This document shows positions 2,586 to 54,096 of a stretch of 64,000 nucleotides of DNA, one piece after another (within the stretch, counting starts at the first letter, position 1; every line of letters begins with the position of its first letter). The notes under the pieces were generated by a model. It was given only the letters and a program-made list of their open reading frames with translations, did no database searches and was not told where the DNA came from. Origin of the DNA: Polynucleobacter sp. (GTDB taxonomy: Bacteria > Pseudomonadota > Gammaproteobacteria > Burkholderiales > Burkholderiaceae); assembly GCA_024642065.1 (NCBI GenBank), contig JAHEBW010000045.1:62001-126000 (forward strand). Direction: 5' to 3'. The position numbers were made by a program, and so were the translations under genes.

Positions 2586-2664
2586 TTTAAGTAATTATTA
2601 ATCAATAAGTTATGAGGAATTTGTAGAGGGAATTTGATATAAACCTGTTGCACTGGAGTTGCTT

Positions 2665-3651
2665 ATGGCATCAATCAGAAACAGGAACGGTAAATGGCAA
2701 GTTCGCATTAATCGTCAAGGTTTTCCCTCTACAACTAAAACTTTCAATTCCCGTAGTCTTGCTCAGCGATGGGCAAAGCAAATTGAAAATGAATTTGATA
2801 TTGGCAATTATCAAAACGCCAATATAGTTCGGCAGATAAATTTCAAAGAAGTTATTGAACGTTATCTGGATGAGGTTACTTCCAAATCTAAAAGTCTTAA
2901 AGAAGATACATTTCGCCTTAGAGCACTGATGCGTCATTGGATTGGGGAACTTAAATTAAATGAATTAACACAATTTACAGTTGCCAGATACCGTGATGAA
3001 CGACTTCAACAAGTATCTAATGGAACAGTCATTAGAGAGTTAGCATACTTTTCAAGCATCATTAATCATGCAAAAAGAGAATGGGGATTTGACATAACAA
3101 ACCCGATACCTTTAGTTAAAAAACCACCATCACCACCAGGACGAAATAGAATTCTTACTGAAGATGAGATTAATCGTCTTTTTGAAGCATGTAAACCAAG
3201 AGTGCGCAATGGAAATCCATGGATTCTTCCTATAGTTAGATTTGCATATGAGACTGCTATGCGAAGGTCAGAAATTTTAGGACTTACATGGGATTGCGTG
3301 GATTTAAATAAACGCATTGCACTATTGCATATTACAAAAAATGGAGACTCAAGAAAAGTACCTCTCTCATTAGTAGCAATACAAATTCTTGAATCTTTAC
3401 CTAAAAACACAACAAATAAAATTTTTCCAATAAATCATGCAAATTTCACTGCTCACTTTGAGAGAGTTAGAAATACTGCCAGTATTCAAAATTTACACTT
3501 TCACGATTTAAGGCATATGGCAATTACAAGAATGGCAAAAAAATTACCGAATGTTATTGAATTAAGTTCTGTATCAGGTCATAAAAGTTTAAAAATGTTG
3601 CAACGCTACTACCATCCTGATGCTGAAGAATTAGCGAGAAAATTAGACTAA
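2665..3651 (+). CDS. Tyrosine recombinase (integrase) of E1
   Basis: Integrase of about 328 residues, 79 bp after pntB and just inside attL, the usual place for the enzyme that made the insertion. It has an N-terminal arm-binding-like region (GKWQVRINRQG), a helical core-binding domain (about 60-150) and a C-terminal catalytic domain with the family residues: Arg in MRRSEILGL (about 200), HDLRH (about 280-284), GHKS (about 306) and Tyr in QRYYHP (about 315). ATG 2665 is chosen over an upstream TTG at 2659 because CTGGAG lies 7 bp before it. It directs insertion into pntB, judging by position. It is clearly different from the E2 integrase. Confidence 0.93.
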   Translation: MASIRNRNGKWQVRINRQGFPSTTKTFNSRSLAQRWAKQIENEFDIGNYQNANIVRQINFKEVIERYLDEVTSKSKSLKEDTFRLRALMRHWIGELKLNELTQFTVARYRDERLQQVSNGTVIRELAYFSSIINHAKREWGFDITNPIPLVKKPPSPPGRNRILTEDEINRLFEACKPRVRNGNPWILPIVRFAYETAMRRSEILGLTWDCVDLNKRIALLHITKNGDSRKVPLSLVAIQILESLPKNTTNKIFPINHANFTAHFERVRNTASIQNLHFHDLRHMAITRMAKKLPNVIELSSVSGHKSLKMLQRYYHPDAEELARKLD

Positions 3652-3827
3652 ATCACTACTAGATGAGTTCTAAATTAGTTCACTAATTAGTATCAATATC
3701 TCTCTTAAAACTAGACCCCATAATCATTCCGCATTGCAGCAATTAATTTGGGGAATAATGCAGATATTTCATAATGTGGAATAAAAAGTGCGTTTTTGAC
3801 GACCTATGTTGCATAAATAAATGTGTA
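3652..3827. other. AT-rich intergenic region downstream of the E1 integrase
   Basis: No gene seen. A short palindrome (arms AATTAGT at 3673-3679 and ACTAATT at 3682-3688) has no T-run and is not a convincing terminator. A TTGACG hexamer at 3796-3801 followed by a poor TAAATG box is a weak promoter candidate for the downstream structured region; the matching place in E2 has no similar sequence. Confidence 0.4.
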
Positions 3828-3839
3828 GGAAATGAACCG

Positions 3840-4310
3840 ACACAACAATTGCAAGCATTGACATAGGTAGGTATGCAGATGCAAGTCACTATATGAAGTA
3901 TTACCAAAGACAGATTGGGTAAACAAACATTACTGTCACGATGGGTGCTCTGAGAAAAAGCAACACCCGATTGTTTAGAAATCGTTCATGTGGTTCTAAA
4001 CAGTTCCCGTTGAGTTGCAAAGCAGATGTAAAGGAAACCGATTAACCGTCCTTCTAAGTCAGATTGATTTAGTTATCTACATGAAGGTGTCTGAAGGTTC
4101 TATATTCAGGTACTTACTTTGCCGTAATAGGCAAAGTGTATCTTCAGATCCTGCTTCAGATACATTAGTTACTAGATATAACTATAGTAATTGCACTATC
4201 GCTTCGCTCTAGTGCAAATTCGCTTTGCTCATATGTCCTATTGATTGAATCTATGAACGAAGTGAATGTTGATGCGAATGAAATGAGTATCAACTGATTA
4301 AGAACTAATC
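3840..4310 (+). ncRNA. Candidate structured RNA (or ssDNA structure) shared with E2
   Basis: About 470 nt, nearly identical to the minus strand of 48040-48530 in E2. Many stems can be drawn: 3970-3980 with 3994-4004 (11 bp), 4087-4095 with 4105-4113 (9 bp with two wobbles), 4116-4123 with 4130-4137 (8 bp), 4137-4143 with 4158-4164, 4167-4174 with 4185-4192, 4191-4198 with 4210-4217 (8 bp) and 4268-4275 with 4287-4294 (8 bp). Where the two copies differ, pairing is often kept: C4202-G4206 becomes T-A in E2, and a G-T at the 4268-4294 stem becomes A-T. No family is recognised. It could be an independent RNA, a long leader of the following gene, or a folded DNA site such as an origin of transfer. 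Strand is assumed from the downstream genes. Confidence 0.6.
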
Positions 4311-4408
4311 CATATAAATACCTGTAGTGCAATGTGGTAGGTAGTAAGTACCTATCGCTAAAGCACATTTCAAGTGCTTGCTAATCTATAACTAATCCAA
4401 GGAGATAA

Positions 4409-4582
4409 ATGAATCCAAATCCAAGTAAATTAACTAAAGATGTTCACATGAGAGTATCCGAATCTCTCCAGCAACTAATCCATGAAATTGCTGTCCAGAA
4501 TCACATGAAACCTAGTTCACTTTGTAGAGTTATTCTTGCTAGAGAACTCCCGAACTACACCCGTAATCGTTTCTTTGGGTGA
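4409..4582 (+). CDS. Small ribbon-helix-helix-like protein (E1 copy)
   Basis: 57 residues, preceded by a good site (AAGGAGATAA) at the end of the structured region. The segment KDVHMRVSESLQQLIHEIA followed by MKPSSLCRVILAREL has the look of a ribbon-helix-helix DNA-binding protein (short strand, two helices), a fold of CopG/Arc-type repressors and of relaxosome accessory proteins. The E2 copy at 47788-47958 shares 52 of 56 positions. Its last 66 nt overlap an antisense ORF (4517-4663). It probably heads a two-gene unit with the 62-residue gene at 4681. DNA-binding is inferred from sequence pattern only. Confidence 0.7.
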   Translation: MNPNPSKLTKDVHMRVSESLQQLIHEIAVQNHMKPSSLCRVILARELPNYTRNRFFG

Positions 4583-4680: not shown

Positions 4681-4869
4681 ATGAGTAGAGAACTAGATTT
4701 ACTTGCAAAAGAGTATGCAAAAGGTGATGTAACTGTTGTAAGAAAAGATGTGAATCTGTATCAAAGAAACCTAACAACTGAGTTATCAGGTTTCATAAGA
4801 GATGTGGAACGTATTGCTAAGAAAGAGAAGAAGGGTAGTGTTACTGTTGTTGCGGTGGTAGAAAGTTAG
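4681..4869 (+). CDS. Conserved 62-residue protein of the E1/E2 module (E1 copy)
   Basis: Not a recognised family. 62 residues with alternating charge, predicted largely helical (LDLLAKEYAKGDVTVVRKDV, then SGFIRDVERIAKKEKK) ending in a hydrophobic strand-like tail (VTVVAVV). No signal peptide. The E2 copy at 47492-47680 matches at 57 of 62 positions and sits at the same place after the RHH gene, so the two genes travel together. A purine-rich AGGATGG precedes the ATG. A role in element maintenance or transfer is a guess from context. Confidence 0.75.
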   Translation: MSRELDLLAKEYAKGDVTVVRKDVNLYQRNLTTELSGFIRDVERIAKKEKKGSVTVVAVVES

Positions 4870-6871: not shown

Positions 6872-6961
6872 AGTTCAGAAAACCATAAAAAAGACCCATG
6901 ATGGAACATGAGTCGGAAGTTCAATTTTGAATAAATTTTCAGAGTTCAGAAATCAAATGTT
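6872..6961. repeat. 90-bp sequence shared with E2 (inverted copy at 44991-45080)
   Basis: About 90 bp matching the reverse complement of 44991-45080 at roughly nine positions in ten. It contains a hairpin (GAC-CATG arms around ATGGAA) next to an A/T run that reads as a terminator on the minus strand here and on the plus strand in E2. GTTCAGAAA-type words lie at both ends. In both elements it follows the 3' end of a cargo gene, so it may be a module border or recombination patch. Confidence 0.7.
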
Positions 6962-7012: not shown

Positions 7013-7762
7013 TTATTCAGTTGCTTGAATTGTTCTACCATTCAAAGGTTGAACAGGTCTAGCGTTCATTTTGAATATATTTTTAAAAGAACCTAATTGA
7101 GCGTTAGACATTTCAATTGGCGTTTTTAAGATGAAGAATGAAACTTCTTCACTACAAGGTGGTGTAGTCAAAGAACCTGTGTAACTGTAATTTGCTGATG
7201 AACTAGGCAAAATATCAGCAGCATTAAATTTATTTTTAAGGTTAATTTTTGACTCAGATTTTGGCAAATTACTAAAAACATCTTTTAAAGGGGCATTCTC
7301 TTTTCCCTCTTTGAAGAAAACACCAATTACACCTAATTTACCATCCGCAGATTTATGAACTAAATGTGCATTAATTGGATACGCTTTGCCATCAATTTTT
7401 TCTTCAGATGGCGTATGGAAGTGGAATTGCAAAATTTTATAATCTTTACCACCTAAATTTGCAGTACCACCATCTGCTAAATTAACTTGAATAGTGTGTC
7501 CATTATTAACTAATTCAGCGGCAGAAGATTTATAGTTAACATTAACTTTTCCAGTATTTGATTTCTTAACAACTTTAGTATCAATATCTAAAGGTGATTG
7601 CGATTTACCTAACTTACATGTCTTGAATTCTTCGCTAATCTCACCCCAATGAGATGGACCTTCTTTACCCTCATAAGACCAATGCCCATGCCCACCTGCG
7701 GCAAAAGATGTGCCACAACCGATGGAAACCAATAAGGTTAATAATAGTTTTGTCATTTTCAT
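7013..7762 (-). CDS. Periplasmic alpha-carbonic anhydrase
   Basis: 249-residue alpha-class carbonic anhydrase, converting CO2 and water to bicarbonate in the periplasm. An N-terminal Sec signal (KLLLTLLVSIGCGTSFA, cleavage before AGGHGHW) is followed by the family features WSYEGKEGPSHWG, QSPLDI, the two-histidine zinc strand QFHFHTPSE, the third ligand region AHLVH and the SLTTPPCSEEV loop. All three zinc histidines are present, so it is probably active. Lies as cargo inside E1 with its own terminator. Likely role: supply of bicarbonate or pH balance. Confidence 0.95.
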   Translation of the reverse strand: MKMTKLLLTLLVSIGCGTSFAAGGHGHWSYEGKEGPSHWGEISEEFKTCKLGKSQSPLDIDTKVVKKSNTGKVNVNYKSSAAELVNNGHTIQVNLADGGTANLGGKDYKILQFHFHTPSEEKIDGKAYPINAHLVHKSADGKLGVIGVFFKEGKENAPLKDVFSNLPKSESKINLKNKFNAADILPSSSANYSYTGSLTTPPCSEEVSFFILKTPIEMSNAQLGSFKNIFKMNARPVQPLNGRTIQATE

Positions 7763-7820: not shown

Positions 7821-8399
7821 TTAAATTACCGAATAAACAGTTCCAATACCAATTTGAAGTTCTTTTGCAATCTGTTTGATACCCATCCCCTTTTCACGCA
7901 ATAGAACGACTGCTTGTTTCATTCCATCATTCATCTTTGATGGACGACCTAACTTTACTCCTCGTGCTTTTGCTGTTTGAAGTCCTGCACATACTCGTTC
8001 ACGAATCAAACTACGTTCATATTCAGAGAGGGCACCGAAGATACTGAACATCATTCTTCCTGAACTTGTTGATGTGTCCATTCCTTGTTGAAGAAAATAC
8101 AAGTCAACTTTGATTGATTGCAGTTCATTGAGTATTTCTACGAGATTTTGAAGACTTCTACCTAATCTATCAATTGACCAACACATCACCATGTCAAATC
8201 GTCCTCTAACTGCATCTTTCATCATCGCATCAAGAGAAGGTCTATCGTAACGAGATTTGGCACCCGAGATGCCGTTATCTACGTATTCTTGAGTGATGAC
8301 ATACCCCATACGAGTTGCGACTGCTCTGAGTTCGTTTAATTGATTCTCAGTAGTCTGTTTATCAGTAGATACACGAGCATAGAGTGCAACTTTCTTCAT
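7821..8399 (-). CDS. Serine recombinase (resolvase/invertase family), E1 copy
   Basis: 192 residues. N-terminal catalytic domain with the nucleophile serine in YARVSTDKQ (about residue 10), the long E helix after LSEYERSLIRERV, the GRPSK linker and a C-terminal helix-turn-helix (IKQIAKELQIGIGTVYSVI). Length and domain order match Tn3 resolvases and Gin/Hin invertases. The E2 copy (42808-43389) differs at only five internal positions plus one extra N-terminal residue. In both elements the gene sits near the att site opposite the integrase and faces inward. It may resolve multimers or control inversion; no substrate site is proven. Confidence 0.93.
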   Translation of the reverse strand: MKKVALYARVSTDKQTTENQLNELRAVATRMGYVITQEYVDNGISGAKSRYDRPSLDAMMKDAVRGRFDMVMCWSIDRLGRSLQNLVEILNELQSIKVDLYFLQQGMDTSTSSGRMMFSIFGALSEYERSLIRERVCAGLQTAKARGVKLGRPSKMNDGMKQAVVLLREKGMGIKQIAKELQIGIGTVYSVI

Positions 8400-8632: not shown

Positions 8633-8724
8633 TAGATAACGAGTTGTTCTATATGGACAAGACTATGATGGTCTTCGGCGATGCGAAGAAGGTCATTGAA
8701 GATATGGTTAAAGCTGTTGAGTAA
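8633..8724 (+). pseudogene. Displaced 3' end of pntB, attR of E1
   Basis: Remnant of pntB: in frame from 8635 it reads DNELFYMDKT and continues to MVKAVE and TAA at 8722-8724. It matches 2491-2570 with two silent differences. It has no start codon and no longer belongs to a full gene. Excision of E1 would restore an intact pntB ending here, directly ahead of the terminator at 8746. Confidence 0.92.
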
Positions 8725-42541: not shown

Positions 42542-42618
<77 letters not shown>

Positions 42619-42807: not shown

Positions 42808-43389
42808 ATGAGTAAAAAAGTTGCTATCTATGCTCGTGTTTCTACTGACAAACAATCTACTGAGAATCAATTAAACGAACTCAGAGCAGTTGCAACTCGT
42901 ATGGGATACACAATCACTCAAGAATATGTAGATAACGGCATATCGGGTGCCAAATCACGTGCTGATAGACCTTCTCTTGATGCAATGATGAAAGATGCAG
43001 TAAGAGGTCGTTTTGACATGGTGATGTGTTGGTCAATAGATAGACTAGGTCGTTCTCTTCAAAATCTCGTAGAAATACTCAATGAACTGCAATCTATCAA
43101 AGTTGACTTGTATTTTCTGCAACAAGGAATGGACACATCAACAAGTTCAGGAAGAATGATGTTCAGTATCTTCGGTGCCCTATCTGAATATGAACGTAGT
43201 TTGATACGAGAAAGAGTCTGTGCAGGACTTCAAGTAGCAAAAGCACGAGGGGTTAAGTTGGGTCGTCCATCAAAGATGAATGATGGAATGAAACAAGCAG
43301 TTGTTCTATTGCGTGAAAAAGGAATGGGCATCAAACAAATTGCAAAAGAACTACAGATTGGTATTGGGACTGTTTATTCGGTTATTTAA
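42808..43389 (+). CDS. Serine recombinase (resolvase/invertase family), E2 copy
   Basis: 193 residues, about 97 percent identical in protein to the E1 copy at 7821-8399. Catalytic Ser in YARVSTDKQ, the DRLGRSLQNLV and GRMMFSIFGALSEYERSLI stretches and the C-terminal helix-turn-helix are all present. The upstream inverted arms (GATACC 42775-42780, GGTCTC 42799-42804) match the site seen at E1. The 3' end overlaps the convergent lipoprotein gene by 8 bp. Likely role: resolution or inversion during element upkeep. Confidence 0.93.
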   Translation: MSKKVAIYARVSTDKQSTENQLNELRAVATRMGYTITQEYVDNGISGAKSRADRPSLDAMMKDAVRGRFDMVMCWSIDRLGRSLQNLVEILNELQSIKVDLYFLQQGMDTSTSSGRMMFSIFGALSEYERSLIRERVCAGLQVAKARGVKLGRPSKMNDGMKQAVVLLREKGMGIKQIAKELQIGIGTVYSVI

Positions 43390-44506: not shown

Positions 44507-44991
44507 ATACGTTCTTTTCCCACTTTTATGGGTTTAACTTTTCTATGAGAATAATCTTTACTTTCTTATTTCTGTTCTCAACTAATCTTTATTCTCAAAC
44601 ATTTGAATCATTCATATCTGGATGCGACCATTCTATTCAATGTAGCAAATGCCCACCAACATACAAAGAAACTTATCAGGTAAATGTATCAAAACAAATT
44701 GTTATCTACACAGGAATTGATTTAATCACAAATAAAGTTGACTCTCAAAAGTTAGAAAACTGCTCTATTATTGATAATAAAAATTATATCTGCGGCGAAA
44801 AGCAAGTCATCACTAGAAGTGATGGGGCAATAGTTACTTTAGATAACAGAACGATTGTAAGAAATGGTTTAGTGGAAGACCAACCACATATGACTATTAC
44901 CAAGAATGGCAGAGAATTTAATCCGCAGACACCTAAGAAAACATGCCGATTTAGAAAAAACTTTTTCGGGCAATATGAGGTAGTTAAATAA
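44503..44991 (+). CDS. Secreted protein, unknown
   Basis: 162 residues; ATG 44503 overlaps the previous stop (ATGA), though Met at 44545 (MRIIFTFLFLFSTNLYSQ) would give a tighter signal peptide. The mature part has cysteines in SGCDHSIQCSKCPPTY, NCSI, ICGE and KTCRF, probably disulphides in the periplasm. Family unknown. Followed by the 90-bp sequence shared with E1, which ends in a terminator-like hairpin. Confidence 0.6.
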   Translation: MNTFFSHFYGFNFSMRIIFTFLFLFSTNLYSQTFESFISGCDHSIQCSKCPPTYKETYQVNVSKQIVIYTGIDLITNKVDSQKLENCSIIDNKNYICGEKQVITRSDGAIVTLDNRTIVRNGLVEDQPHMTITKNGREFNPQTPKKTCRFRKNFFGQYEVVK

Positions 44992-45080
44992 ACATCTGAT
45001 TTCTGAACTGTTAAAAACTGTTCAAAATTGAACTTCCGACTCATGTTCCATCATGGGTCTTTTTTATGGTTTTCTGAACT
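44991..45080. repeat. 90-bp sequence shared with E1 (inverted copy at 6872-6961)
   Basis: Reverse-complement match to 6872-6961. On the plus strand here GACTCATG and CATGGGTC form an imperfect hairpin followed by six T, which would terminate the upstream cargo gene. Confidence 0.7.
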
Positions 45081-47491: not shown

Positions 47492-47680
47492 TTAATTTCC
47501 CACCACCGCCACCACAGTAACACTACCCTTCTTCTCTTTTTTGGCAATTCTTTCAACTTCTCTTATGAAACCTGACAGTTCAGTAGTCAGGTTTCTTTGA
47601 TACAGATTCACATCTTTTCTTAGAACTGTTACATCACCTTTTGCATATTCTTTTGCAATTAAATCTAGTTCTCTACTCAT
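47492..47680 (-). CDS. Conserved 62-residue protein of the E1/E2 module (E2 copy)
   Basis: 62 residues, 57 identical to the E1 protein at 4681-4869; changes are conservative apart from the last two residues. GGAGG lies ahead of the ATG on the minus strand. It follows the RHH gene by 107 bp in the same direction; that gap holds the start of the antisense ORF. Family and function unknown. Confidence 0.75.
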   Translation of the reverse strand: MSRELDLIAKEYAKGDVTVLRKDVNLYQRNLTTELSGFIREVERIAKKEKKGSVTVVAVVGN

Positions 47681-47697: not shown

Positions 47698-47850
47698 ATG
47701 GATAAAGACGAACTAGAACAATTCAAAGACATTCCTGTTCTACAAAACGAACTAGATTGGATAATTGAAGTCATTGATGAGATCCAATCAAAAGAATCTG
47801 TTTCGGATGTAGTTCGGGAGTTCTCTAGCAAGAATAACTCTACAAAGTGA
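47698..47850 (+). CDS. Antisense small acidic protein overlapping the RHH gene (E2 copy)
   Basis: 50 residues, DELEQFKDIPVLQNELDWI and a C-terminus VVREFSSKNNSTK identical to the E1 version. It overlaps the RHH gene by 63 bp on the opposite strand and starts 17 bp from the divergent 62-residue gene, leaving little room for a promoter. Conservative and synonymous change between the copies argues for translation; the weak ribosome site argues against. Confidence 0.5.
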   Translation: MDKDELEQFKDIPVLQNELDWIIEVIDEIQSKESVSDVVREFSSKNNSTK

Positions 47851-47958
47851 ACTAGGTTTCATGTGATTCTGGATAGCAATCTCATGGATTTGCTGCTGGA
47901 GAGATTCAGATACTCTCATGTGAACATCTTTAGTTAATTTATTTGGATTTGGATTCAT
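47788..47958 (-). CDS. Small ribbon-helix-helix-like protein (E2 copy)
   Basis: 56 residues with 52 identical to the E1 protein at 4409-4582 (S6N, L23Q, V29I, T51I, and a one-residue shorter end). It has the same strand and two-helix pattern (KDVHMRVSESLQQQIHEIA; KPSSLCRVILAREL). CAGGAGATAA precedes the ATG. It follows the structured region on the minus strand. Confidence 0.7.
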   Translation of the reverse strand: MNPNPNKLTKDVHMRVSESLQQQIHEIAIQNHMKPSSLCRVILARELPNYIRNRFF

Positions 47959-48039
47959 TTATCTCCTGGATAAGTTATAGATTAATAAGCACAAGGAATG
48001 AGGTTTCTAGATAGTCGGTTACTACCCACCACAATCAGA

Positions 48040-48530
48040 TACAAGTATTTATATAGATTAGTTCTTAATGAGTTGATACTCATTTCATTCGTATCAACAT
48101 TCACTTCGTTCATAGATTCAATCAATAGGACATATGAGCAAAGCGAATTTGCACTAGAGTGAAACGATAGTGCAATCACTAGTGATATCTAGTAATCAGT
48201 GTATCTGAAGCAGGATCTGAAGATACACTTTGCCTATTACGGCAAAGTAAGTACCTGAATATAGAACCTTCAGACACTTTCATGTAGATAACTAAATCAA
48301 TCTGACTTAGAAGGACGGTTAATCGGTTTCCTTTACATCTGCTTTGCAACTCAACGGGAACTGTTTAGAACCACATGAACGATTTCTAAACAATCGGGTG
48401 TTGCTTTTTTCTCAGAGCACCCATCGGAACAGTAATATTTGTTTACCCAGTCTGTCTTTGGTAATTACTTCATATAGTGACTTGCATCTGCATACCTACC
48501 TATGTCAATGCTTGCAATTGTTGTGTCAGT
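48040..48530 (-). ncRNA. Candidate structured RNA (or ssDNA structure), E2 copy
   Basis: Minus-strand counterpart of 3840-4310. Similarity begins near 48530 and fades near 48040, just before the RHH gene, where the two copies diverge. Perfect 8-bp stem at 48149-48156/48168-48175 with inner pair T-A where E1 has C-G, and an 8-bp stem for GTTGATAC/GTATCAAC fully paired where E1 has a wobble. No clear promoter at the upstream end; the terminator of the 48582 gene lies directly before it, so it should be transcribed on its own if it is an RNA. Confidence 0.6.
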
Positions 48531-48548
48531 TCATTACATATTTATAAA

Positions 48549-48571
48549 AAACCGAGGTTCAAAACCTCGGA
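48549..48571 (-). terminator. Terminator of the 48582-48824 gene
   Basis: Hairpin CCGAGGTT-TTG-AACCTCGG on the minus strand (48552-48570), then a T-run. Confidence 0.88.
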
Positions 48572-48581
48572 TTATTTAGCA

Positions 48582-48824
48582 TTACTTATCAAATATATGC
48601 CCATACTTTTTCTCAAATTCCAGAGCACATTCTTTTTCATACTCCTCTTCTGTCTTACACCAGATAAGGTTCTCTTTAATAGAAATCGTATCTTCAGATT
48701 CACAGGAATCATTTCCGATATAGAAAGATGAATCTCGCACTAATTGAACTGCATCCTTTACAGAATTTGCTTTAACACCAACTACAACATAACCTTCACA
48801 ATATACTTTTACTGAATATTTCAT
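48582..48824 (-). CDS. Hypothetical 80-residue protein
   Basis: Not recognised. Begins MKYSVKVYCEGYVVVGVKA, a beta-strand pair followed by a helix (SVKDAVQLVRDSS), and ends with an acidic helix (EEEYEKECALEFEKKYG). Soluble. Ends in a good terminator. Its upstream area contains two inverted repeats and the divergent 48984 gene. Confidence 0.6.
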   Translation of the reverse strand: MKYSVKVYCEGYVVVGVKANSVKDAVQLVRDSSFYIGNDSCESEDTISIKENLIWCKTEEEYEKECALEFEKKYGHIFDK

Positions 48825-48983: not shown

Positions 48984-49616
48984 ATGAAGACCAATCTAAT
49001 CATCAAGAAAGACTCATACCGTATTTGGTTTGAATTCTACAAACTTGCAACTCAGAATAAGTCGCTCAAAGTTAACAAGCGTTTTTATGACTTATGGGGT
49101 GAAGATGTAGTAAGTATGAAATTTGATGATTGGTGGAAAACACATTCACATCTTTTTATTCAACCAATTGTGAAAGTAGTAGAACCTGATGGTCAAATTG
49201 AATCACCTTGGGGCATTCTGATTGATGTTCCTTTAAATAAATCAATAACAGAAACTCTTAGCGATATAAAAGATATATTAAAAAAGAATCAAAAGACAAA
49301 TAAGAAAAACAAGAGACTCTTAATTGGCAAATACACGCTATCAGAGAATTCAGAACCAAAACTCAAAGCAGTTAAAGAATTTCTCAATGTTTACAAAGAT
49401 GTTTACTTAAAGATGGATAACCCAAAAGGACAAAAATTCTATGAGGCAGTTACTCTCTACTACACATCTAGAAAGAAAAATGCTCGTATTCCACCTCAGT
49501 TGATTGATGTCAATAGAGGAAATGCAAGTGCAGTTAGAACATTAGGAAGATGGATTCAAAAAGCAAAAAAGATTGAATCTAATGTGGCAAATGGTGAGTT
49601 TCCAGGGAAGTATTAA
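48984..49616 (+). CDS. Hypothetical protein, E2 cargo
   Basis: 210 residues, not recognised. Basic and aromatic N-terminus (KKDSYRIWFEFYKLATQ, FDDWWKTHSHLF), central lysine-rich helix (KKNQKTNKKNKRLLIGKY) and a C-terminal helical part with ASAVRTLGRWIQKAKK, which resembles a helix-turn-helix end. DNA-binding is possible. Preceded by a 10-bp inverted repeat. Overlaps the HNH gene by 4 bp at the stop (convergent). Confidence 0.6.
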   Translation: MKTNLIIKKDSYRIWFEFYKLATQNKSLKVNKRFYDLWGEDVVSMKFDDWWKTHSHLFIQPIVKVVEPDGQIESPWGILIDVPLNKSITETLSDIKDILKKNQKTNKKNKRLLIGKYTLSENSEPKLKAVKEFLNVYKDVYLKMDNPKGQKFYEAVTLYYTSRKKNARIPPQLIDVNRGNASAVRTLGRWIQKAKKIESNVANGEFPGKY

Positions 49617-50398
49617 TTTTTCTTTAACAAAGTCTTTAATTCATCAGGTTTTAATGCTGGACTTTTTCTATGCAACATTGCATGACAGTTCGCACAAACA
49701 GGTATTAAATCCTTTACAGGATCAATATTCAACTCACCACCAACTTCACCCAAAGGTTCTATATGGTGAACATGACAGAATTCATTCCCCAATTCACCAT
49801 AAGTATCCGAGAATGAAAAGTTGCATATTTGACACTTATAACCATAGCGCTCAATACACTGAATTCTTTTATTAGGGTCTCTCTCATACCTGTTAACCAA
49901 CATTGGTATCTTTTTTGCAAAAGAAGGTGTTTTATCAACTCCAGAATCAACAACCCCTTCTATACCAATCGTTTGATTTGCAGATGAAAGAGATAAAGTT
50001 AATTTAATAGTATGTTTATCGTCTGGAATAGGAAAACCATCTTCAAAAGAAATTAACTGTCCAACTCCCAAATATATGAACTTTGTATTTTTGCTATTCC
50101 ATCGAGCAAAAAAATGTAATTTCAATTCTTTGTTAATTATCTTTTTAAAAGTTGGTTGAGATGAATGAGTATTGGGTTTCCCAAACCAAGTAACCTCTTC
50201 TTTTTCAGAGTCATATGCATTAGCAAAATCATGCCCAGTTCTACCAGCAGAATCAATGTTTAAGAATGCAATAAGGTCATCCCCCTCAACGACATACCCA
50301 GTATCCCAATTACCACCCTTAGGTTTTTCACCTGAATCTGGGTGATATGACTTCCAAATATCATTTCTCGTATATTGGGACCCTTTGATAAAGTTCAT
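49613..50398 (-). CDS. HNH endonuclease with N-terminal recognition-like domain (McrA-like)
   Basis: 261 residues. C-terminal HNH nuclease (about 170-250): CQICN, HVHHIEPLGEVGG and VCANCHAMLHR give the zinc cysteines and catalytic histidines. The N-terminal part (YTRNDIWKSYHP, GGNWDTGYV, RTGHDFANAY, WFGKPNTHSSQ) resembles the DNA-recognition domains found in type IV McrA-like enzymes, though this is a low-similarity judgement. Third gene of a leftward operon; its start overlaps the HNH-HIT stop by 4 bp. Suggests restriction of foreign or modified DNA. Confidence 0.8.
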   Translation of the reverse strand: MNFIKGSQYTRNDIWKSYHPDSGEKPKGGNWDTGYVVEGDDLIAFLNIDSAGRTGHDFANAYDSEKEEVTWFGKPNTHSSQPTFKKIINKELKLHFFARWNSKNTKFIYLGVGQLISFEDGFPIPDDKHTIKLTLSLSSANQTIGIEGVVDSGVDKTPSFAKKIPMLVNRYERDPNKRIQCIERYGYKCQICNFSFSDTYGELGNEFCHVHHIEPLGEVGGELNIDPVKDLIPVCANCHAMLHRKSPALKPDELKTLLKKN

Positions 50399-51396
50399 TT
50401 TTTATCCTCGTAATAACCTTTACCTGCAATTAAATGCCTAATTCCACCTCTAGGGTTCTCAACATCACCTTTTCTTCGTGGAATCAAATGAACATGACAA
50501 TGAAAGACTGTTTGTCCTGCAGTTTCTCCACAGTTCATACCGATGTTGTAACCATCAATCGTCTTATCAAATTTATCTAATTTAGTCTTTTGTTCCTGAA
50601 TTAGTTGATTGATTGCATTGACTTCTGCTTGAGTGAGTTCAAAGTAGTCTTTTGCATGTCTTTTAGGGATAAACAGAGTATGAAACTCAGTTACAGGGAA
50701 TCCGTCACGAATTGCATATGCCAATGAGTTCTCTGCAATTACTCTTTGTCTATCTTTAGATTGAACATCACAGAACAGGCAGTTTTCTTCACGATGAGAG
50801 TATTGATTCTCTAGTTCTTTGAAGTTCGTCTTATCTCTATTACCTTTGTTCGTATTACATTCCCAACACAATGCTTGATAGTTAGAGATATCGTTTAATC
50901 CACCCAAACTTCTAGGAATAATGTGGTCAACATCAATTGCTTTATCTGCCACTGATGCACCACACATCTCACATCTTCTACCTGCTCTGAGTAATACTTG
51001 GTATCTGACTGACCCACTGATTGCTTCTCTGTCAGTTGCTCTGTGCTCCCAAATCTTATCTCCTCGTTTATCTTCATACTCAACGAGTTTGTCCATGCAG
51101 AGATTAATCAGTTCATCAACTTGTTCTTGAGTCAGTTCTGAGAAACCATTTAGATGATGAACAGTCTTTTCTCTAGTAGTGATTTGACGATTTGCAAGAA
51201 CTTTACCAACCATGTTCCTGACTTTATCAATGTAATAGTCAAGTTGCGTAGGGTCACGATTAAGAATGACTTGTGCAATCTCTTCTTCTTTTGCAGAACC
51301 TTTATTCTTCAATAACTCAATCAACATCACAGGTTGATAGATATGCGACATAGACATATCTTCTGCAATGAATTTTTTGAGTTCTTGGAAAGTCAT
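50395..51396 (-). CDS. HNH-HIT fusion protein
   Basis: 333 residues in three parts: an N-terminal helical winged-helix-like region (about 1-110), an HNH domain (about 115-200: CEMCGASVADKAIDVDHIIP, CWECNTNKGNRD) and a C-terminal HIT domain (about 210-333) with CLFCDV, FHTLFIPKRH and the triad FHCHVHLIP. HIT enzymes hydrolyse or transfer nucleoside phosphates, and Aprataxin-type members remove AMP from DNA ends. A nuclease joined to such a domain implies cut and end-processing or a nucleotide-sensing effector. Motifs of both domains are intact. Confidence 0.85.
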   Translation of the reverse strand: MTFQELKKFIAEDMSMSHIYQPVMLIELLKNKGSAKEEEIAQVILNRDPTQLDYYIDKVRNMVGKVLANRQITTREKTVHHLNGFSELTQEQVDELINLCMDKLVEYEDKRGDKIWEHRATDREAISGSVRYQVLLRAGRRCEMCGASVADKAIDVDHIIPRSLGGLNDISNYQALCWECNTNKGNRDKTNFKELENQYSHREENCLFCDVQSKDRQRVIAENSLAYAIRDGFPVTEFHTLFIPKRHAKDYFELTQAEVNAINQLIQEQKTKLDKFDKTIDGYNIGMNCGETAGQTVFHCHVHLIPRRKGDVENPRGGIRHLIAGKGYYEDKK

Positions 51397-52689: not shown

Positions 52690-53922
52690 TTATGTTTTCT
52701 TTGATTTGACAGTCTTTTGGGCAATCTTTTTCTTCTCTACTGACTCAAATCTATGTAAATGTTCTCGGACTTGGTCAGTAGTTAAATGAGCAGCATAAAA
52801 CTGGTCAATCATCTGTTGAGATGTTCTTGCATTTCTCGCAAGATGCAGAGTATTCACATTGCCTTTCACTAATCTCATCATGATTGCAGTGTGTCTTAAC
52901 GAATACAACGTCACATTCTTGTCAGTCTGTTCTGCGATACCTGTTCTATCGAGTATTTCTCTGAAGAGTCTTCCTATCACTGACATTGCAGTATCTCGAA
53001 TCTTGTATTGCGGAAAGAATACAAATTCGTCAGGAGATATCTTCTTTTGAGTTTTTAATCGCAAATCACAGAGTTGTTTATAGATGCCAACCGTTGCAGG
53101 CATTGCTTGCACTTCATTTGCAGTTGTTTTTGTTGCGGGATGACTGAGAACGATCCATGCATCTTCTCCGTCTTTCTTGATATTGACGTGTTTATGTTTC
53201 AACACTCGTAAATCAGATGGACGGATGAAAGAATTCACCATGAACTGTATTAATAACTTCATCTCTAGGGTGATGGTGACACCTCGAACGATTGTTTGTT
53301 CAGATGCACACACTTCACTCATCTTAATCAGTGAGTCATATTCTTCATCGGTCAAATAGTCTCGTTTCTGACTGGTTTGCAATTTGCCGTGCACTTTTGG
53401 AAATACTGGCAACTTATCAATCAAGTCATTCGCAATCGCAAATTTGAGTATCTTTCTCAGTACGACTAAGTAATGCGTTTGTGTTGCGGATGAGGAACCG
53501 TCTTTTTTGAGAGTTGCGAGAAAACGACTGATTTGAGCATTGGTGATGGTTTGGATGTCTTGTTCACCGAAAAACGGAACTAATGCGTGATTGAAACGAG
53601 ACAAATCGTTTCTGTAGGTTTGTTTGAGTTGAGTGTTTTCGACTGAATCTAGATACGCACGACCTACTACTGCGAAGGATTTGTTGGTTTCTGATGGATC
53701 ATCGGATAGGACGGAATTGACTAGAGTTTGTTCGTAGAACTTGATGGCGACTTGTTTTGCTTTTTTGACATCATTTGTTTTGGTTGATTGGGTGTGATAT
53801 TTGCCTTGATAGTAGACACGGGTCCAGTAAAATTGACTTGCAGGAGTTAGATATATGACTAACTTTTTAGGATAACCGTTAATCGTTTGAATACTTGATG
53901 GAATGGGGGTTGTTCGACTCAT
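52690..53922 (-). CDS. Tyrosine recombinase (integrase) of E2
   Basis: 410 residues. N-terminal arm-binding region, SAM-like core domain (about 80-180), catalytic domain with Arg in SFIRPSDLRV (about 234), LYSLRHTAIM (Arg and His about 345; the usual first His is Tyr), RTSQQMIDQFY with the terminal Tyr nucleophile. About 130 bp inside attR, transcribed into the element. It inserts at tRNA-Met. Larger than the E1 integrase and not evidently its close relative. Confidence 0.92.
   Translation of the reverse strand: MSRTTPIPSSIQTINGYPKKLVIYLTPASQFYWTRVYYQGKYHTQSTKTNDVKKAKQVAIKFYEQTLVNSVLSDDPSETNKSFAVVGRAYLDSVENTQLKQTYRNDLSRFNHALVPFFGEQDIQTITNAQISRFLATLKKDGSSSATQTHYLVVLRKILKFAIANDLIDKLPVFPKVHGKLQTSQKRDYLTDEEYDSLIKMSEVCASEQTIVRGVTITLEMKLLIQFMVNSFIRPSDLRVLKHKHVNIKKDGEDAWIVLSHPATKTTANEVQAMPATVGIYKQLCDLRLKTQKKISPDEFVFFPQYKIRDTAMSVIGRLFREILDRTGIAEQTDKNVTLYSLRHTAIMMRLVKGNVNTLHLARNARTSQQMIDQFYAAHLTTDQVREHLHRFESVEKKKIAQKTVKSKKT

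Positions 53923-54050: not shown

Positions 54051-54096
<46 letters not shown>

Follow-up and report, generated by a model that had tools for sequence, protein, structure and literature searches.

GOLLD and ROOL are large structured RNAs of phage-related DNA that often lie near tRNA genes; both are Rfam families, and GOLLD rises during lysis (excerpts of PMC12286853). Among phage satellites, each PLE carries an abundant non-coding transcript between inverted repeats and the helper ICP1 also makes abundant non-coding RNA (excerpts of PMC7567579), and PICMI satellites are described without capsid-remodelling genes (excerpts of PMC10803314). Tycheposons, in the parts of PMC10872708 that define them, are islands bordered by tRNA genes that carry a tyrosine recombinase and a variable cargo, and they are reported from Methylophilaceae as well; the terms ncRNA and non-coding are absent from that paper. 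Two Rfam families of relevance, RF01712 (Methylobacterium-1) and RF01718 (Polynucleobacter-1), both appear in a table in PMC2864571, where the excerpt on RF01712 draws no link to elements or late promoters, and in the literature searched RF01712 is named in this one paper only. The late promoters of T4 and KVP40 are characterized by TATAAATA and those of S-PM2 by NATAAATA (excerpts of PMC2984593), whereas in those of Aeh1 a/gC replaces TA and a -35 element is absent (excerpts of PMC2988020). Among the titles listed in a literature search on satellites and T4-type late promoters, none dealt with satellites using such promoters.

The locus described here shares with GOLLD and ROOL a large structured RNA in mobile DNA, often by tRNA genes, but its carriers are small islands and its RNA is shorter; identity with either was rejected, as neither is among its Rfam matches listed up to E 1. 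PLE and PICMI are likewise small integrative elements, with virulent helpers according to the same excerpts, whereas the helper here is putative and the element layout includes a serine recombinase; AlpA and primase, as the excerpts give them for PICMI, were not recognised in the elements here. Tycheposons differ in the width of their definition, which extends from 4 to 200 kb in the defining parts of PMC10872708. Integration at att sites with an own integrase, a criterion for phage satellites, was found for both elements of this locus, and att repeats also for the relatives in genomes G114, G110, G561 and G013.

The window analysed, a stretch of 64,000 nt from Polynucleobacter sp., contains two att-bounded integrative elements with their own integrases, E1 (6.2 kb) and E2 (11.5 kb). 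The left repeat of E1 (2491–2569, 79 nt) lies at the 3′ end of pntB and is 97.5% identical to the right repeat at 8633–8711; between them lie a tyrosine integrase (2659–3651, + strand; Pfam Phage_integrase, 1.3e-29) and a serine recombinase (7821–8399, − strand; Pfam Resolvase, 2.4e-45). In E2, the left repeat (42573–42618, 46 nt) lies at the 3′ end of tRNA-Met and is identical to the right repeat at 54051–54096, with a serine recombinase at 42808–43389 (+ strand; Pfam Resolvase, 1.7e-45) and a tyrosine integrase at 52690–53922 (− strand; Phage_int_SAM_1 over its cut-off at 1.4e-7, Phage_integrase just under at 6.7e-6). The tRNA-Met repeat places the far end of E2 at 54096, so that the element is larger than the E2 of an earlier note on this DNA may have been; the mobile setting which that note had proposed is borne out by the att repeats and integrases of both elements. 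Repeats and an integrase likewise delimit the relatives in G114 (tRNA-Pro, 8.8 kb, 18-nt repeat), G110 (tRNA-Ser, 9.1 kb, 18-nt repeat with one mismatch), G561 (tRNA-Met, 9.4 kb, 48-nt repeat) and G013 (tRNA-Met, 13.7 kb, 46-nt repeat), and the L023 element lies at tRNA-Asp with only a weak 17-nt repeat. Serine recombinases are present in E1, E2, G114, G561, G013 and L023 (G110 was scanned in part). No relaxase or replication protein was found among the scanned proteins of E1, E2 and their relatives, which represent part of the ORFs, in keeping with the earlier statement that both elements lack a relaxase; nor was any capsid, terminase or replication protein recognised in E1 or E2, whose proteins were scanned with Pfam, with PHROGs used for the ribbon–helix–helix (RHH)-like protein only. 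Most small proteins of the elements fall in no family.

The cargo of these elements is varied. E1 carries a eukaryotic-type carbonic anhydrase (7013–7762, − strand), and E2 carries HNH plus DUF3427 and HNH plus HIT proteins (49613–51396, − strand) that resemble parts of defence systems (PtuB, ThsC and ZorE models). A 90-nt stretch, 93% identical between E1 and E2, occurs in opposite orientation at 6872–6961 and 44991–45080. In G110, a flagellin N-terminal domain is fused to a lactonase-type beta-propeller (L014, 5481–7325, + strand); the G128 RNA is preceded by a gene for a type III restriction enzyme subunit (L036, 1676–3922, − strand); and a G013 protein (L016, 9117–9746, − strand) comes nearest to a structural protein, as it hits a phage protease family at 3.9e-8 and shows weak similarity to a family of head maturation proteases (1.7e-4).

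The region at 3840–4310, which the earlier note had singled out as structured and non-coding, is a real structured RNA whose fold is under selection. Those coordinates are nearly right, as the motifs that bound the RNA lie at 3812–3819 and 4313–4320; from these its ends are set at 3820–4312 (+ strand), and the corresponding RNA of E2 is placed, again with inferred ends, at 48054–48538 (− strand), so that the full length appears to be ∼480 nt. A conserved core of six helices occupies 3906–4082 of E1 (+ strand) and scores 222.6 and 191.6 bits with two covariance models, R1 and R2, values that are not independent since both models were built with the E1 sequence itself; the core of E2 (48282–48459, − strand) scores 217 and 187.3 bits, respectively. 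The RNAalifold consensus adds a long-range helix (5′ strand 3867–3873, partner 4074–4080, + strand) that is paired in only part of six loci. A long hairpin domain 3′ of the core (4087–4164, + strand) is seen in the fold and in the RNAalifold consensus and is conserved, yet its consensus over an eight-row alignment is weak (15 pairs, 4 compensatory), perhaps because its repeats permit two alternative pairings. Variable hairpins, read in the sequence and the fold, fill the remaining 3′ part (4165–4311, + strand). These include the pair exchanges described earlier, all of which are present: C4202–G4206 of E1, which closes a TTC loop, is T–A in E2; the change in the 4268/4294 stem corresponds to G4274–T4288 in E1 and A–T in E2; and the foot of the 4167–4192 stem differs between the elements by wobble exchanges. 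E1 and E2 are, however, 92% identical over 583 query positions of the RNA region, so that the pair on its own is weak evidence for a fold. A hidden coding gene was rejected on the grounds that no ORF of at least 80 aa overlaps 3840–4310 and that indels are many among the homologues; the longest stop-free stretch within 3812–4320 is 70 codons.

Folding energy alone gives no choice of strand, as the + strand of E1 (3826–4311) folds at −125.5 kcal/mol with a z-score of −2.86 (none of 100 shuffles equally stable) and the opposite strand folds equally well (z −3.00). It is the covariation among homologues that decides, beyond energy, that the fold is real. In an unfitted MAFFT alignment of six loci, RNAalifold returns 80 pairs, of which 25 show compensatory change. 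In structure-fitted alignments, both-sided change is observed in 23/39 core pairs with seven loci, 33/39 with nine and 37/39 with 14, with 97.4, 96.5 and 96.7% of cells paired, respectively. None of 500 shuffles matched the observed double changes, paired cells or covariation score in any of the three sets, whereas further pair types, a weaker measure, were equalled by 34 of 500 shuffles in the seven-locus set. As fitted alignments favour their own structure and the loci are related, the covariation figures are upper views; this bias is bounded by the unfitted alignment and by controls with partners slid by 1–3 columns, in which pairing falls to 29–47%. The covariation check called for by the earlier note, here carried out by shuffles rather than with R-scape, and the Rfam search that it also proposed both leave the RNA reading standing, together with the claim of selection on the fold.

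The composition of the paired cells identifies the folded strand. The nine-locus alignment holds 137 A–T, 134 G–C, 57 G–T, 4 A–C and 8 other cells, and as G–U pairs would appear as A–C on the opposite strand, the excess of 57 to 4 marks the + strand, which lies 3′ of the upstream motif, as the one that folds. These counts bear on the earlier suggestion of a folded single-stranded DNA site such as an oriT, with which the RHH-like neighbour and the lack of a recognised relaxase in the elements would agree. Against it stand the ratio of G–U to A–C cells, the promoter-like motif that precedes each locus (exact in 17, with one mismatch in two) and the compensatory changes, which are spread over six helices and 177 nt in the 14-locus set; an RNA fits these data better, and we regard a DNA site of this kind as very improbable.

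The earlier note recognised no known RNA class here, which is incorrect for part of the RNA. Positions 3906–4014 (+ strand) match RF01712 at 49.9 bits (gathering cut-off, 40 bits), and the 103 nt spanned by that model overlap the first three stem-loops of the core; the rest of the ∼480 nt lies outside the Rfam model. RF01712 is one domain of a ∼480-nt RNA carried by att-bounded integrative elements. Other loci score 56 (G561), 49 (G013) and 47.7 bits (G571), E2 (39.4 bits) and L023 (31.1 bits) fall below the cut-off, and nothing was found in G114 or G110 at a limit of E 0.1. RF01718 (cut-off, 37 bits) has no match in the 64-kb window or in genome G000; it represents a 5′ domain without a counterpart in the matches of E1. 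Across 30 Polynucleobacter genomes, consisting of 10 in which R2 had matches and 20 from the list of those in which it had none, eight RF01718 copies were found in six genomes, five of them first seen in this search. In each of the eight copies (∼3-kb loci), an R2 match follows 13–19 nt 3′ on the same strand, although these matches are weak (22.3–28.3 bits; E 5e-7 to 3e-5 in 24.5 kb) and the whole-genome R2 search had reported just three of the eight, namely the three weak places of the 186-genome search, which sit 14–19 nt behind RF01718 matches. With an R2 match behind every copy, the two orphan Rfam families appear to belong to a single class. In view of the low scores, homology is likely rather than proven, and it is safer to speak of a shared architecture behind a late-type motif. 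The neighbours at the loci examined are DUF6641 and integrases rather than an RHH gene. A DUF6641/phrog_31551 gene, assigned by Pfam on two loci and PHROGs on three, lies divergently upstream of the RNA in 3/3 loci (L046, 4393–4833; L048, 6246–6683; L047, 4056–4493), and three tyrosine recombinase genes, the third barely exceeding the Pfam cut-off, surround one Polynucleobacter-1 RNA in L046 (2826–7650).

Searching 186 Polynucleobacter genomes at the DNA level gave matches in seven, comprising the genome itself, two tiny matches (G108 and G113) and four new loci (G114, G110, G561 and G013). A pattern scan of genome contigs gave seven matches, two of them real: L023, from Methylophilales bacterium LSUCC0135, and L025, apparently the contig of G114; RNA-bearing islands thus occur in two bacterial groups. 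The pattern matches L019, L022 and L024 were set aside on reading as they have no RNA context, and R1 gave nothing better than E 0.33 on the five remaining matches (L019, L020, L021, L022 and L024). Built from E1, E2 and G561 only, R1 recovered the other four known loci at 104–131 bits and added G571 and G128 within the genus. R2, built from nine loci, added G062 (70 bits) and G045 (66 bits) as well as three weak places at 24.6–28.3 bits, which brings the R2 total to 10/186 genomes, or 9/186 without the weak places. Wider samples returned only the own genome, with 1/399 for the order (R1), 1/266 for the class (R2) and 1/398 for the phylum (RF01712), and the family of L023 returned 1/187, the L023 genome itself; owing to the stricter filters of large searches these counts are lower bounds. 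Neither the E1 RNA nor one Polynucleobacter-1 RNA had a blastn match among 50,697 phage or 72,556 plasmid records, the RF01712 consensus letters gave short chance matches only against plasmids and phages, and four exact patterns and one peptide scan, which are sensitive to close copies only, found no relative in IMG/VR. The IMG/VR matches L017 and L018 are coding-like sequence with no other part of the RNA and were discarded.

The RNA lies behind a motif of the form TATAAATA or NCTAAATA, which is exact in 17 of 19 loci (11 of E1 type and eight Polynucleobacter-1) and carries one mismatch in E1 and G110. In E1 the upstream motif is CATAAATA (3812–3819, + strand), which has one mismatch to TATAAATA and fits the NATAAATA of S-PM2, and a second, exact TATAAATA lies 3′ of the RNA (4313–4320, + strand). 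In E2 both copies are exact (48539–48546 upstream and 48046–48053 downstream, − strand), and a terminator-like hairpin found by sequence scan directly precedes the upstream one (48552–48570, − strand). The 64-kb window holds five copies of TATAAATA on both strands, three of which bound the RNA in E1 and E2. Among the first nine loci, in which the upstream motif lies 90–149 nt before the first core helix, six have TATAAATA (E2, G114, G561, G013, L023, where it occurs twice, and G571), two have one mismatch (E1 and G110, the latter with TATACATA) and one, G128, has CCTAAATA. Before the RHH-like gene, the first eight loci show TATAAATA in six (E1, E2, G114, G110, G561 and G013), GATAAATA in L023 and CCTAAATA in G128. 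Local Markov shuffles put the chance of six out of nine upstream at ∼1e-11 and of six out of eight before the gene at ∼2e-12, figures that are flattering as they treat the loci as independent. The background elsewhere is 0.03 per kb and strand for TATAAATA (13 in 436,312 bases, with the window included twice) and ∼0.06 for CTAAATA (13 in 223,012 bases, seven loci). The NCTAAATA variant was adopted after G128 and then tested on later-found loci, and all seven loci found after the motif idea agree (G062, G045 and five Polynucleobacter-1 loci): G062 has ACTAAATA before the RNA and CCTAAATA 38 nt before the RHH-like gene, and G045 has one site of each form, TATAAATA before the RNA and CCTAAATA before the gene. 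At Polynucleobacter-1 loci the motif stands in front in 8/8, seven as [AG]CTAAATA and one as TATAAATA, at −62 to −67 in seven loci and at −33 in one. The occurrence of NCTAAATA at both sites of G128 and of G062 looks as if one factor reads both sites. Taken together, this placement suggests a candidate T4-type late promoter directly before the RNA.

The motif is also similar to a host −10 box. The RNA might then be transcribed by the host as part of an integrative element with no phage link, TATAAATA serving as the −10 box; TATAAA is close to the sigma-70 −10 hexamer and no helper is known. A consensus scan for sigma-70-type promoters on both strands around the RNA, however, returned none at 3650–4450 and none at 47900–48700, where shuffles average 3.7 and 3.9, and NCTAAATA departs from a −10 box, yet is present at 7/8 Polynucleobacter-1 loci as well as at each of the two sites in G128 and in G062. 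We therefore consider host transcription rather unlikely.

Behind the second motif, the gene next to the RNA is RHH-like, as previously noted. In E1 it encodes 57 aa (4409–4582, + strand; homologue alignment and profile) and its counterpart in E2 is at 47788–47958 (− strand; homologue alignment). A profile of seven such proteins matches the CopG-like plasmid protein ORF56 (PDB 2k9i) at E 3e-4, and the G114 homologue exceeds the Pfam RHH_3 cut-off (22.2 versus 21.6 bits). The AlphaFold model of the E1 protein (pLDDT 75) has no strand, and its top Foldseek matches are CopG and Arc, all at E >1; for these reasons an RHH fold is likely rather than established. The gene is found 3′ of the RNA in 10 of the 11 E1-type loci (E1, E2, G114, G110, G561, G013, L023 and, by eye, G128, G062 and G045), and none was recognised near the G571 RNA among ORFs of at least 50 aa. 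A second small ORF follows in E1 (62 aa; 4681–4869, + strand), with small ORFs of low identity at the same place in other elements, including E2 (47492–47680, − strand; position and alignment); over seven aligned loci, identity to the first locus is 15–53%.

This neighbour raises the alternative that the RNA acts in cis, as a leader controlling the gene behind it. In neither E1 nor E2 did the scan reveal a terminator-like site at the RNA's 3′ end, between it and the gene, so that the RNA may continue into the RHH gene. A leader is at odds, however, with the second promoter-like motif, which precedes the gene in all 10 loci, with the distance of the gene in L023 and G062, where it starts ∼1.1 and ∼0.8 kb behind the core, and with three Polynucleobacter-1 loci, where no such gene was recognised within 1.5 kb. 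A leader function is, in our estimate, distinctly unlikely. The promoter scans favour a satellite that reads phage signals and the missing terminator slightly favours a leader, and neither changed our weighting.

For a conserved RNA that stands behind T4-type late-promoter motifs in small elements with att ends, the simplest interpretation is a satellite able to sense a T4-like helper via its late sigma factor. We thus lean towards E1 and E2 being satellites that would read the late programme of T4-like helpers, with the RNA made on infection. The elements would rest in the chromosome until a T4-like phage infects, whereupon the gp55-type late sigma factor of the phage and its sliding clamp would recognise the TATAAATA or NCTAAATA sites, the site upstream of the RNA giving the ∼480-nt structured non-coding RNA and the site upstream of the gene the RHH-like protein together with the second small protein; the RNA would then serve the element's own spread. 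Points that weigh against a satellite are the −10 box likeness of the motif, its one mismatch in E1 and G110, the lack of a terminator-like site, the empty phage, plasmid and IMG/VR searches, the many small proteins that belong to no family, the weak likeness of one G013 protein to head maturation proteases, and the G571 and three Polynucleobacter-1 loci in which an RHH gene was not recognised nearby.

As to the task of the RNA, our guess is that it acts in trans on the late machinery of the helper (packaging or assembly), because no capsid, terminase or replication protein was recognised in E1 or E2. RNAII, which acts in the replication of ColE1 plasmids, has about the length of the RNA here, and the RNA might in a similar way prime or control replication of the element; the lack of a recognised replication protein and the profile match to ORF56, a plasmid copy control protein, would be in accord with such a role. 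No plasmid form was found among the 72,556 plasmid records, however, and a late-promoter motif would be unusual at an origin that is used early, so that we hold this to be unlikely. Among possible tasks our guess ranks diversion of the helper's late machinery ahead of replication priming, with a leader function last. More tentatively, and with somewhat less than even confidence, the form of the motif (TATAAATA or NCTAAATA) may indicate the lineage of the helper, and the RNA may be the tool by which an element with no capsid, terminase or replicase takes over the late stage of its helper.

For two orphan Rfam families this provides a common architecture, a carrier and a time of expression that can be tested. 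Should the promoter reading prove right, one could recognise satellites of T4-like phages from their sequence, and the role of large phage-linked RNAs could be addressed in a small system of one RNA, one RHH-like gene and one small ORF.
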